From Candidatus Avelusimicrobium vaccinum (GTDB taxonomy: Bacteria; Elusimicrobiota; Elusimicrobia; Elusimicrobiales; Elusimicrobiaceae), in contig CADBIY010000002.1 of the NCBI GenBank assembly GCA_902794895.1, positions 13,660-77,659 of the forward strand: 64,000 nucleotides of DNA. Direction: 5' to 3'. A program made the position numbers and the translations under genes. Under the pieces are notes generated by a model. It was not told where the DNA came from, did no database searches, and worked only from the letters and a program-made list of their open reading frames with translations. Positions 28,060 to 52,565 of this stretch are shown in pieces. Positions within the stretch are counted from its first letter, which is position 1. Every line of letters starts with the position of its first letter.

Positions 28060-28287
28060 TTAATCGCGCTTTAGGAAAATTTTAGCCGGGCTGGTAGCCC
28101 CTTTGATAAGAGAAAGTTTGTTTTCCGGCAAGTGCAAATATTCCGCTAGCACACACCGGACCGCTTCATTGGCGCGGCCTTGTTCCGCAGGCGCTTTGAC
28201 CCAAATTTCAAATGTGTCCGGAGTTTTTTGGACGATTTTATTTTTCTTTTCGTCCGCATGAACTTTTACTTTGAGGTATTGTTCCAT
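28060..28287 (-). CDS. DUF167 (YggU/UPF0235) protein
   Basis: The start is taken at 28287 (MEQYLKVKVHADEKKNK), giving 75 residues. The region with FEIWVKAPAEQGRANEAV is the hallmark of the YggU/UPF0235 family (a small alpha/beta protein, function unknown). KLSLIKGATSPAKIFL completes the domain. A TACAAT box ends 6 nt before the ATG and there is no ribosome site, so the transcript is probably leaderless. It is divergent from the structured pilin leader at 28351. Confidence 0.85.
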   Translation of the reverse strand: MEQYLKVKVHADEKKNKIVQKTPDTFEIWVKAPAEQGRANEAVRCVLAEYLHLPENKLSLIKGATSPAKIFLKRD

Positions 28288-28293
28288 ATGTAT

Positions 28294-28299
28294 ATTGTA
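28294..28299 (-). promoter_or_regulatory. -10 box of DUF167 gene, leaderless start predicted
   Basis: TACAAT on the minus strand is followed by 6 nt (ATACAT) and the ATG at 28287. No Shine-Dalgarno sequence is present. Confidence 0.5.
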
Positions 28300-28350
28300 C
28301 ATTATGCGATAAAAATTATGTAAAATGGGACTGTAGTAACTAAAATTTTT

Positions 28351-28596
28351 CTGTTTTTGGAGCCATACCAAAAAGGGTGTGGGTTTCTGCAAATGCAGTT
28401 TCGTGAAGGCCAAAAACAGTCGTTTAGGCATAAAATAAACGGAAGTCATGAGCCGTTTGTTTTATGCCGAGTGTTTGTTATCTTGGATAGCAAACCACGG
28501 CTGTTATTATATTGAGTAACCTTCACGAACTCAAGAGATACCAGCCGTTTTTATTGGCTCCCAAAATGGGAAATGTAGGTTGAGTGTAAACCCAAC
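28351..28596 (+). ncRNA. structured 5' leader RNA A of pilin gene (candidate riboswitch/attenuator)
   Basis: Helices: P1 28351-28360 with 28410-28419 (10 bp); a hairpin 28387-28398 inside P1; P3 28427-28442 with 28453-28468 (16 bp); P4 28473-28482 with 28486-28495. A long-range helix joins 28400-28409 to 28520-28529 (10 bp, perfect). ACGGCTG (28497-28503) can pair with CAGCCGT (28542-28548), which runs into TTTTT (28548-28552): a terminator-like form. The competing hairpin AGCC/GGCT uses 28543-28559. All main elements recur with changed but still paired bases in leader B (51836-52042). The transcript probably starts near 28333 from a TAAAAT box at 28321. Confidence 0.75.
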
Positions 28597-28615
28597 AAAA
28601 CAAGGAGACAATAAA

Positions 28616-29215
28616 ATGAAAAAACCACAAAACAAGAGTCATTTCGTACTTGATACGAAATCTCTCCTTAATAGTAACAACGAGATCCCAAATCAAGTGT
28701 GGGATCACATCAAAGGCAAATGCGGTTTTACACTCGTGGAACTATTAGTGGTCGTTTTAATTATCGGCATTTTAGCGGCAGTGGCACTACCGCAATATCA
28801 ATTGGCCGTAGCGAAAACACGATATAACTCGATGAAAAACCTGACACTCAGCGCCATCCGCGCCGTTGAACGCTACTATTTGGAAAACAGTATCACCCCG
28901 GAAAATTTTAATGAGTTGGATATCGAGATTCCCAACTTAACCAATCCCCTCACTGCGAAATTTGATAATTTTACTTGCATGTACAGCAGATCAGCTTCGG
29001 TAACATATGTTGAGTGTACACTGAATCTTTCTTCCGGTTATGCGGCTTTACGTTCTCATTTTTATACAGATGGGTCCAACCGTAGCGGCCGCATCATAAC
29101 CCGTTGTATTGCCAAGGCGGACAGTTCGATAGGAAATCAAATCTGCAAACAGGAAACGGAAGATTCCGGCACAGATTCTGCTAATGGACAAGAAAAAATA
29201 TACGTTTATGATTAA
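28616..29215 (+). CDS. type IV pilin / pseudopilin with repeat-extended leader peptide
   Basis: The ATG at 28616 is preceded by AAGGAG. The prepilin leader is 37 residues, ending KGKCG before FTLVELLVVVLIIGILAAVA; other pilins here have 6-10. About 24 of these residues (roughly residues 8-31) are encoded by the palindromic repeat at 28638-28708, which lies in frame. Phe+1 and Glu+5 are intact. The head (about 125 residues after the helix) includes two Cys pairs (FTCMYS, YVECTL, TRCIAK, NQICKQ). It is the only gene between leader RNA A and the terminator at 29261. Confidence 0.87.
   Translation: MKKPQNKSHFVLDTKSLLNSNNEIPNQVWDHIKGKCGFTLVELLVVVLIIGILAAVALPQYQLAVAKTRYNSMKNLTLSAIRAVERYYLENSITPENFNELDIEIPNLTNPLTAKFDNFTCMYSRSASVTYVECTLNLSSGYAALRSHFYTDGSNRSGRIITRCIAKADSSIGNQICKQETEDSGTDSANGQEKIYVYD
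28638..28708. repeat. double-hairpin palindromic repeat, copy 2 (inside pilin gene)
   Basis: The left arm 28638-28664 (stem TTTCGTA/TACGAAA around CTTGA) and the right arm 28682-28708 (stem GATCCCA/TGGGATC) are both 27 bp and in inverted orientation around 17 bp. The element lies in frame in the pilin leader-peptide coding region. Copies 1 and 3 lie in intergenic DNA. Confidence 0.8.
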
Positions 29216-51835: not shown

Positions 51836-52042
51836 CTGTTTTTGGATAAAAGAAGTATGTACTCCCGCAAGGGAGATTGACAAGAGACCAAGAACAGTCG
51901 TTTTAGGCACAATTTGGCGGCCACCAAATTGCGCCGAATGTTTGCTTTTTAACCAAAAAGCAAACTACGGCTGTTGTGTTGGGTACACTCTTGTCAGCTC
52001 AATATAGCGGCCGTTTTTACTGCCGCTATGAGCCAACCCAAC
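51836..52042 (+). ncRNA. structured 5' leader RNA B of pilin gene (candidate riboswitch/attenuator)
   Basis: Helices: P1 51836-51845 with 51888-51897; GNRA-looped hairpin CTCCC-GCAA-GGGAG (51862-51875); P3 51906-51917 with 51924-51935; P4 51940-51950 with 51955-51965 (11 bp). A long-range helix joins 51878-51886 to 51988-51996 (9 bp, perfect). ACGGCTG (51967-51973) can pair with CGGCCGT (52008-52014), which runs into TTTTT (52014-52018). A competing hairpin uses 51997-52011 with 52022-52033. GTTGGGT (51978-51984) can pair with ACCCAAC (52036-52042) just before the ribosome site. It is homologous to leader A at 28351-28596. Confidence 0.75.
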
Positions 52043-52058: not shown

Positions 52059-52565
52059 ATGACAAGAGAAAAAACCTTCACAAACGGTTTTACGCTTGTA
52101 GAACTACTCGTCGTTGTACTCATCATCGGCATATTAGCAGCGGTTGCGTTGCCACAATATCAAAAAGCGGTAGATAAAGCTCGCGCGTCCGAAGCGGTAC
52201 AACTTATCAGCACATTAGAAAAAGCAACAGAATTGTGGATATTGGAAAATGGCGTAAGGGATGCAACATTCTTGGGCACTGATAGCACAGATAAATTAGA
52301 TATAAATCTTCCTTGTCAATACACAGAAGGTGGTGTTGATTGTTATGTAAATGAGAATGTGTTTAGAACAGAGATCAATTCATCATCTCCATCTTATGTA
52401 TATGCTTACCTACGTCCAAAAACTTACGATTGGGTAACCATTGTAGCCGAGCGCGATACAAACGGCACATGGACGCATTGGTGCGGGTACAACGCGGATG
52501 AAAAACGCACAGAAGATATCTGCAAAAGTTTACAAGGTTACGAAGCCAGAGACGTGGACCTCTAA
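52059..52565 (+). CDS. type IV pilin / pseudopilin
   Basis: The ATG at 52059 follows an AAAGGAA site. The leader of 10 residues (MTREKTFTNG) precedes FTLVELLVVVLIIGILAAVA with Glu+5. The ALPQYQKAVDKARASEAVQL stretch is close to the 13370 and 43764 pilins. The head has four Cys (LPCQYTEGGVDCY, HWCGYN, EDICKS). 168 residues. It is the sole gene behind leader RNA B. Confidence 0.9.
   Translation: MTREKTFTNGFTLVELLVVVLIIGILAAVALPQYQKAVDKARASEAVQLISTLEKATELWILENGVRDATFLGTDSTDKLDINLPCQYTEGGVDCYVNENVFRTEINSSSPSYVYAYLRPKTYDWVTIVAERDTNGTWTHWCGYNADEKRTEDICKSLQGYEARDVDL

Follow-up and report, generated by a model that had tools for sequence, protein, structure and literature searches.

The window, by which we mean the whole 64,000-nt stretch of DNA that was analysed, carries prepilin genes A and B, each preceded by a structured leader (Table 1). 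Leader A, taken from helix P1 to the U-tract of a terminator, occupies 28351-28552, and leader B (51836-52018) shows the same arrangement of segments. The segments that the first-pass annotation had named in leader A, among them a 16-bp P3, P4 and the two strands of a long-range helix, were all found in place, as was the matching layout of leader B. The minimum free energy (MFE) fold of leader A (28330-28618, 289 nt) has an energy of -96.2 kcal/mol, corresponding to z = -6.8 relative to dinucleotide shuffles, and 0 of 200 shuffles were equally stable. The annotation had the structured RNA run up to the pilin gene; structured RNA does lie 5' of this gene, but the conserved element stops at 28552, and in the tail 3' of the U-tract no column is conserved above 66%. 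For copy A, no promoter stood out in a promoter scan. A terminator scan of A reported none, probably since the 13-nt loop exceeds the scanner limit of 8.

The gene 5' of leader A (28060-28287, minus strand) is divergently oriented, and its product is presumably a DUF167-type protein. An ORF at 28060-28449, which overlaps leader A, was probably called too long. Prepilin A has an N-terminal extension (NKSHFVLDTKSLLNSNNEIPNQVWDHIKG; 28634-28720) ahead of its GFTLVELL motif. An insert resembling this extension (HAELDSASRCYNREIPNQVWND) is present in the proteins of copies L016 and L083 and looks like an in-frame repeat insertion.

Table 1. Features of leaders A and B and of the genes that follow them, in window coordinates.
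Feature	Position	Strand	Remarks
Leader A, P1 5' strand CTGTTTTTGG	28351..28360	+	partner 28410-28419
Leader A, P1 internal region, hairpins P1a and P1b	28361..28399	+	fold
Leader A, PK5', 5' strand of the 10-bp long-range helix, TTCGTGAAGG	28400..28409	+	adjoins P1 3' strand
Leader A, P1 3' strand CCAAAAACAG	28410..28419	+	AACAG (28415-28419) doubles as start of P2
Leader A, P2 5' strand AACAGTCGT, antiterminator	28415..28423	+	
Leader A, P3 5' strand	28427..28442	+	P3 of 16 bp; covariation
Leader A, loop L3 AAGTCATGAG	28443..28452	+	putative kissing loop with palindrome TCATGA (28446-28451)
Leader A, P3 3' strand	28453..28468	+	covariation
Leader A, P4 hairpin	28473..28495 (28473-28482/28486-28495)	+	covariation
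Leader A, P2 3' strand ACGGCTGTT, also 5' base of terminator stem	28497..28505	+	
Leader A, P5, upper terminator stem	28512..28534 (28512-28516/28530-28534)	+	covariation
Leader A, PK3' strand CCTTCACGAA, within P5/terminator loop	28520..28529	+	
Leader A, terminator 3' half CAGCCGT and U-tract (28548-28552)	28542..28552	+	
Shine-Dalgarno AAGGAG of gene A	28602..28607	+	sequence
Prepilin gene A	28616..29215	+	Pfam N_methyl, E 1.1e-7
Leader B, P1 5' strand	51836..51845	+	leader B is copy L013
Leader B, PK5' TGACAAGAG	51878..51886	+	complement of 51988-51996
Leader B, P1 3' strand CCAAGAACAG	51888..51897	+	
Leader B, P3, loop CGGCCA (51918-51923)	51906..51935	+	palindrome GGCC
Leader B, P4	51940..51965	+	
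Leader B, P2 3' strand/terminator 5' base ACGGCTGTT	51967..51975	+	
Leader B, PK3' CTCTTGTCA	51988..51996	+	
Leader B, terminator 3' half CGGCCGT and U-tract	52008..52018	+	
Prepilin gene B	52059..52565	+	Pfam N_methyl, E 1.9e-6

Searches with Rfam 15 returned only three tRNAs for the window and no family over the leaders. With E up to 5, the segment 28200-28700 gave eight weak matches, far below the gathering score, none of them a bacterial leader or riboswitch, while 20 homologous loci gave tRNA, rRNA and tmRNA only. The GEMM (c-di-GMP/cGAMP) models were likewise unmatched in leader A and 20 homologous loci. The initial impression that the leader belongs to no known class is thus upheld for the window and these loci. 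Titles and abstract openings, in a coverage that mostly leaves aside subscription journals and preprints, contained no report of the leader RNA, and we found no paper joining Elusimicrobiota, riboswitch and pilin.

Comparison of leader A with its own genome gave six further partial copies. We built a covariance model, R1, on six sequences, namely A, B and four of the partial copies, spanning CCAAAAACAG to the terminator. As the first-pass annotation had proposed, such a model could be carried through the Elusimicrobiota, and it uncovered a large family, with matches in 90 of 340 genomes of the phylum and 6 of 100 genera (E <= 1e-6). The positive genomes include 61 of the 66 listed for the own genus, all 18 listed for a second genus of the family and 11 in another family; four other genera of the own family gave no match in six genomes, and neither did 230 further genomes of the phylum. 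In the relatives set, 32 of 61 genomes matched (own genus 32/37, sister family 0/24). The own genome has 15 copies (E <= 1e-5), and the congener G026 (1.1 Mb, 72% complete) has 91 (E <= 4e-7). An exact pattern recovered at least 116 stretches from genome_contigs (84,980 species); among the 80 loci listed, 79 were named Elusimicrobiota or Endomicrobium and one 'uncultured bacterium'. A phage origin was rejected because this one exact pattern had 0 matching stretches in viral_contigs.

From 153 matches 130 were kept, after removal of 11 that were antisense or short and then of three window rows, two end-cut and seven antisense matches. Without near-duplicates, 120 non-redundant copies remained, of which 117 were parsed and three were not. 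Part of the strand conservation in these sets is a product of selection, as the parsers demanded CGGC and GCCG and the exact pattern behind the 80 loci contained these strands. In L012, L013 and L066 the parser took the terminator for P2; these are presumably the three zero-length long-range helices among the 117, and they were compared with themselves in the terminator table; for the analysis of loops the assignment was put right. In G026, 82 of the 91 stretches were parsed and the other nine read by eye.

Several copies are of interest in themselves. Copy L007 (1441-1700) is decayed to a 5' half, and L022, in the same place as L004, to a 3' half, followed by a short prepilin-like gene with FTLVKLL instead of FTLVELL. 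L020 and L021, both in the own genome, are divergent (55 and 39 bits) and may represent an older sub-family; the proteins encoded behind them match TPR weakly in one case and IreB weakly in the other. In L041 (2205-2276), L042 (847-918) and L047 (2328-2414) the leader and prepilin unit ends within about 60-140 nt of a tRNA gene, as if tRNA sites had served as points of entry. A small transposable element with terminal inverted repeats was considered and rejected: the 13-bp repeat of copy E (L008) is absent in B and C and hence not general.

The family provides extensive evidence for the helices. In 108 aligned homologues, 93.0% of the pair cells are standard pairs, and G-U pairs are in wide use. 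Both sides have changed in 31 of 37 pairs, including every modelled pair of P3 (15/15), P4 (8/8) and P5 (5/5). The covariation score is 0.557, compared with 0.225 when shuffled and 0.062-0.103 for partners slid by 1-3 columns, in an alignment that was fitted to the structure by the model and favours it somewhat. These counts agree with the original proposal of a structured leader RNA under selection for pairing. In alignment A4, upper P2 is paired in 99.2% of cells and lower P2 in 60.1%, the lower figure being partly due to misalignment. P1 (CUGUUUUUGG/CCAAAAACAG) lies outside R1. P1 was counted in the 111 copies whose helix reaches 6 bp or more (6 of 117 were excluded for a shorter helix or an incomplete strand); 1058 of their 1110 cells pair, above all of 200 re-dealings of the partners (mean 1028, maximum 1039). 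We regard this evidence as modest, because the P1 strands are almost invariant. Clear coupled P1 changes exist, as in L014 (CUAUAUUUGA/UCAAAUAUAG), whose P2 partner strand is altered too. By eye, P1b of the homologues frequently has a GNRA cap.

The long-range helix has a modal length of 10 bp. Cognate strands pair over at least 8 bp in 105 of 117 copies, compared with 178 of 1394 non-cognate trials, and 67 of the 82 parsed G026 copies find their best partner among all 82 in the cognate strand. The 5' strand of the helix ends at most 2 nt from the P1 3' strand in 79 of 82 G026 copies; the arrangement suggests that P1 and the long-range helix stack in the terminated state. The first description of this helix as a pseudoknot needs qualification: the 10-bp helix is real and cognate-specific, but it is nested in the MFE fold, as in the P2 (antiterminator) fold, and becomes a true pseudoknot only in the terminator fold, if P1 or the terminator hairpin forms. 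A further helix, P0, may join the P1 5' strand to the stretch just after the terminator, with a cognate mean of 15.9 versus 15.2 for non-cognate partners and 13.1 for a shuffled tail. P0 reaches at least 10 bp in 27 of 166 copies (including L008, L044, L091 and L234), with both-side changes in one (L234), and is a possible helix of the read-through state.

Two strands of the leader have alternative partners. AACAG is common to P1 and P2, and ACGGCUGUU is both the P2 3' strand and the 5' base of a long terminator stem, which is followed by a conserved U-tract. The terminator hairpin has a median energy of -23.8 kcal/mol. CGGCT and [AG]GCCG with a U-tract (at least 4 T of the last 6) are present in 41 of the 43 copies found by the model alone, which come from the own-genome and relatives-set R1 searches and are independent of strand-based selection. 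Conservation in alignment A4 is 94-100% per column for the P2 3' strand, 100% for GCCG and 97-99% for the U-tract. The sequence thus places an intrinsic terminator between leader and gene, as in an attenuator, and the antiterminator P2 is mutually exclusive with it, as P2 takes the terminator 5' strand. In L014, L211, L229, L253 and L259 the shared strand has changed and, read by eye, its P2 and terminator partners both still pair; the last four are among the nine unparsed G026 copies. The first-pass annotation described the helices correctly but overlooked the terminator, the competition between P1, P2 and terminator, and the palindromic loop discussed below.

To complement the alignments, we calculated state energies (nearest-neighbour, with no pseudoknot term) for 103 copies. 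With the full leader, P1 plus terminator has a median advantage of 6.2 kcal/mol over the P2 fold (5th-95th percentile -1.4 to 13.4, so that some copies go the opposite way). With the terminator 3' half absent, the P2 fold is better by a median of 8.2 kcal/mol. Since each state is favoured at a different transcript length, the layout is that of a co-transcriptional attenuator. A TATAAT-like site lies upstream in 81 of the 86 copies with enough upstream sequence, against a shuffled mean of 48.4. We are highly confident, at the level of sequence, that the leaders form a structured, switch-like attenuator family.

The first-pass annotation tied the leader to pilin genes, and a pilin-specific leader had to be abandoned: among the 120 non-redundant copies 59 precede a prepilin, 50 precede another called ORF and 11 have no called ORF, nine of these 11 having at most 410 nt of downstream sequence. 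The ORF classes were called mechanically, and the 50 include at least L095 as an apparent prepilin fragment. A same-sense ORF is called within 420 nt in 109 of 120 copies, and the prepilin start codon lies a median of 38 nt past the end of the modelled element. In 45 non-pilin proteins picked by eye, Pfam detected glycosyltransferases (families 2, 8 and 9), outer-membrane beta-barrels, sulfatases, RgpF, an EcoRI-type methylase, the N-terminal domain of a type I restriction subunit and others, with one to four members per family. In G026, a prepilin motif lies downstream of 76 of the 82 parsed copies. Together, the Pfam families and the G026 counts indicate that accessory surface genes are the shared theme, prepilins forming the biggest group. 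Small proteins (59-86 aa) follow L014, L015, L017, L018, L052, L066, L073, L124 and L127; single scans of those behind L014, L015, L017 and L018 gave no Pfam match at E 0.01.

The apical loop of P3, L3, contains TCATGA in leader A and GGCC in leader B. In 189 distinct copies we found 54 distinct L3 loops of 4-12 nt, one copy giving a longer loop. Palindromes of at least 4 nt occur in 45 of the 54 (shuffle mean 18.6, maximum 29) and of at least 6 nt in 26 (mean 2.4, maximum 7; 500 shuffles each); these shuffles ignore kinship, and the loops draw repeatedly on a restricted set of strings whose flanks are fixed. Control loops behave as expected by chance: in P4, at least 6 nt in 0 of 77 (mean 0.1) and at least 4 nt in 7 of 77 (mean 6.6); in the P1 domain, at least 6 nt in 8 of 244 (mean 8.2). 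At 4 nt or more, P1-domain loops (58/244) exceed the shuffle mean of 47.0 and stay inside the range (maximum 64). The L3 palindromes comprise 20 strings and cover 12 of the 16 possible central 4-mers, and all 12 occur within G026 alone. The nine unparsed G026 copies all have a palindromic L3 by eye (TAATTA, TTATAA in four, CTCGAG in two, TCATGA and CTGCAG). Nine of the 54 distinct loops are without a palindrome of at least 4 nt, and three copies have a GACG tetraloop instead of a palindrome.

Palindromes are retained while their sequence changes. Among 145 nearest-neighbour pairs of copies, 88 have different loops that are both palindromic, 45 have the same loop, 11 have one palindromic loop and 1 neither; in some of the 88 the rest of the aligned leader is 85-92% identical. 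Such a self-complementary apical loop, kept through sequence change, is what a palindromic kissing-loop dimer would display. In 123 of 169 copies and 25 of 40 distinct loops, the palindrome is preceded by one more free loop base than follows it, an offset that speaks against hairpin-copying DNA repair. Pairing of L3 inside the same leader was rejected, as the palindrome recurs elsewhere in its own leader at background frequency (3/114 versus 2.9%). The simplest reading of these sequence patterns is that self-complementarity is selected while specificity changes, as would be expected of kissing homodimers with a diversified code. Dimerisation of L3 is on the whole probable, AU-only palindromes such as UAAUUA being ones that would kiss weakly. 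Dimerisation as the regulatory input is a more tentative proposal, for which we see somewhat less than an even chance.

Helices, competing pairings, terminator and L3 self-complementarity can all be read from the sequence, and we infer a switch that works in cells, with L3 dimerisation as its signal. Each leader would measure about 200 nt, follow a promoter-like site in most cases and end in an intrinsic terminator right before the gene. P1 would form first. When RNA polymerase is in P4-P5, AACAGYCGU would quit P1 and pair with ACGGCUGUU, forming the P2 antiterminator, around which the 10-bp long-range helix would close. Once the terminator 3' half is made, ACGGCUGUU may pair with CAGCCGU(UUUUU) instead and P1 may re-form, giving the terminated state, where docking by the long-range helix would bring the terminator loop beside P1. 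Transcription of the surface gene would depend on the choice between P2 and terminator. As the input, RNA itself would agree best with the sequence evidence: the L3 palindrome may kiss the identical loop on another leader molecule, and the amount of leader RNA, terminated leaders being one example, would then feed back on the same gene, with different palindromes keeping copies insulated from one another. Such a cis-acting transcription attenuator, with leader RNA as its input through L3 kissing, is in our view evenly balanced between being right and wrong.

A wider reading, which is possible and on present sequence evidence rather unlikely, is genome-wide RNA self-recognition in gut Elusimicrobiota. 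In a single genome, up to about 90 leaders of surface genes would carry palindromic barcodes, apparently under diversifying selection, through which a nascent leader could kiss RNA of its kind, and dimers would set the switch. Pilin genes might in this way sense their own transcript, leading to bistable or rationed expression of many different pilins without DNA rearrangement.

The same switch anatomy would serve a new class of riboswitch for a metabolite or second messenger, an unlikely reading by our estimate, in which a ligand binds at the P2/P3/P4 junction or in the P1 domain and kissing only stabilises a dimeric aptamer. Nucleotide-sensing riboswitches govern pilus genes elsewhere. A small-molecule riboswitch is not specially indicated here, because only two positions of the junction are both unpaired and at least 90% conserved (A4 columns 25 and 100) and the top conservation falls in the dual-pairing strands. 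The downstream genes are also without an evident shared metabolic pathway, and the diversity of L3 palindromes inside one genome would be left unexplained. In favour of a riboswitch, PMC7357161 discusses seven classes that have been crystallised in dimeric form.

A protein could also operate the attenuator. A dimeric RNA-binding protein or antitermination factor acting on the hairpins, with L3 as a half-site, would coordinate accessory surface genes, and the downstream genes are indeed mostly accessory surface and restriction genes. Such a loop-binding protein could also explain the recurrent L3 strings with fixed flanks. L3 has no common sequence, however, and 20 palindromic strings in loops of 4-11 nt are unlike one protein site, which makes this reading distinctly unlikely. 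We give still less credence to a constitutive 5' structure for stability or pausing with no switch, against which stand the terminator with its conserved U-tract ahead of the gene (in 41 of the 43 model-only copies) and the conservation of the competing helix. A DNA-level element (a mobile element or recombination site), whose inverted repeats mimic RNA structure and whose palindromes stem from hairpin DNA repair, would suit the high copy number, the decayed copies (L007 and L022) and the few copies beside tRNA genes, but is highly improbable given the same-sense ORF within 420 nt in 109 of 120 copies, the widespread G-U pairs, the alternative pairings and U-tract, and palindromes lying mostly off the stem axis, unlike the products of hairpin-copying repair.

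If attenuation by leader RNA through L3 kissing is correct, the leaders would constitute a large family of regulatory RNAs, absent from Rfam 15 as far as tested and with very many copies per genome. The surface repertoire of a little-studied gut phylum would be under leader-RNA control, and homodimerisation of bacterial mRNA leaders, with diversified palindromic codes, would emerge as a regulatory input.

Attenuating leaders of the riboswitch and T-box type are 5' leaders with an exclusive terminator and antiterminator and an early helix that shares the antiterminator strand. The same layout of terminator, antiterminator and early helix is present here. The leaders differ from them in having no Rfam match in the tested loci and no clear conserved ligand pocket, up to 91 copies per genome, and a self-complementary, diversified loop.

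The c-di-GMP and cGAMP (GEMM) riboswitches lie before pilus and surface genes, and control of such genes by a leader, predicted here from sequence, would be a shared trait. In contrast to them, leader A and 20 loci had no Rfam match to either class, and the architecture, compared on general knowledge, differs. Pilus mutants have been linked to the cGAMP level, and it is this link, not riboswitch placement, that the available text of PMC8835794 addresses.

The guanidine-II riboswitch is likewise a bacterial leader with loop-loop kissing, which here is predicted. In guanidine-II both kissing loops usually stand in tandem in one RNA, unlike the single L3 per leader here. Its kissing loops are two-base palindromes, as tabulated in PMC7357161.

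With the dimerisation loops of retroviruses, the HIV-1 DIS and the Moloney tetraloop, L3 shares an apical loop that carries either a 6-nt palindrome or GACG as a tetraloop. The HIV-1 DIS loop has a 2+6+1 geometry, with the extra free base 5' of the palindrome as in most L3 copies. In PMC7357161 and PMC516450, the retroviral dimerisation loops include the HIV-1 DIS and the Moloney GACG kissing tetraloop, the latter kissing by two base pairs. Unlike these retroviral loops, the loops described here belong to bacterial mRNA leaders, their dimer is predicted, and they display 20 palindromic strings, many of them in one genome.
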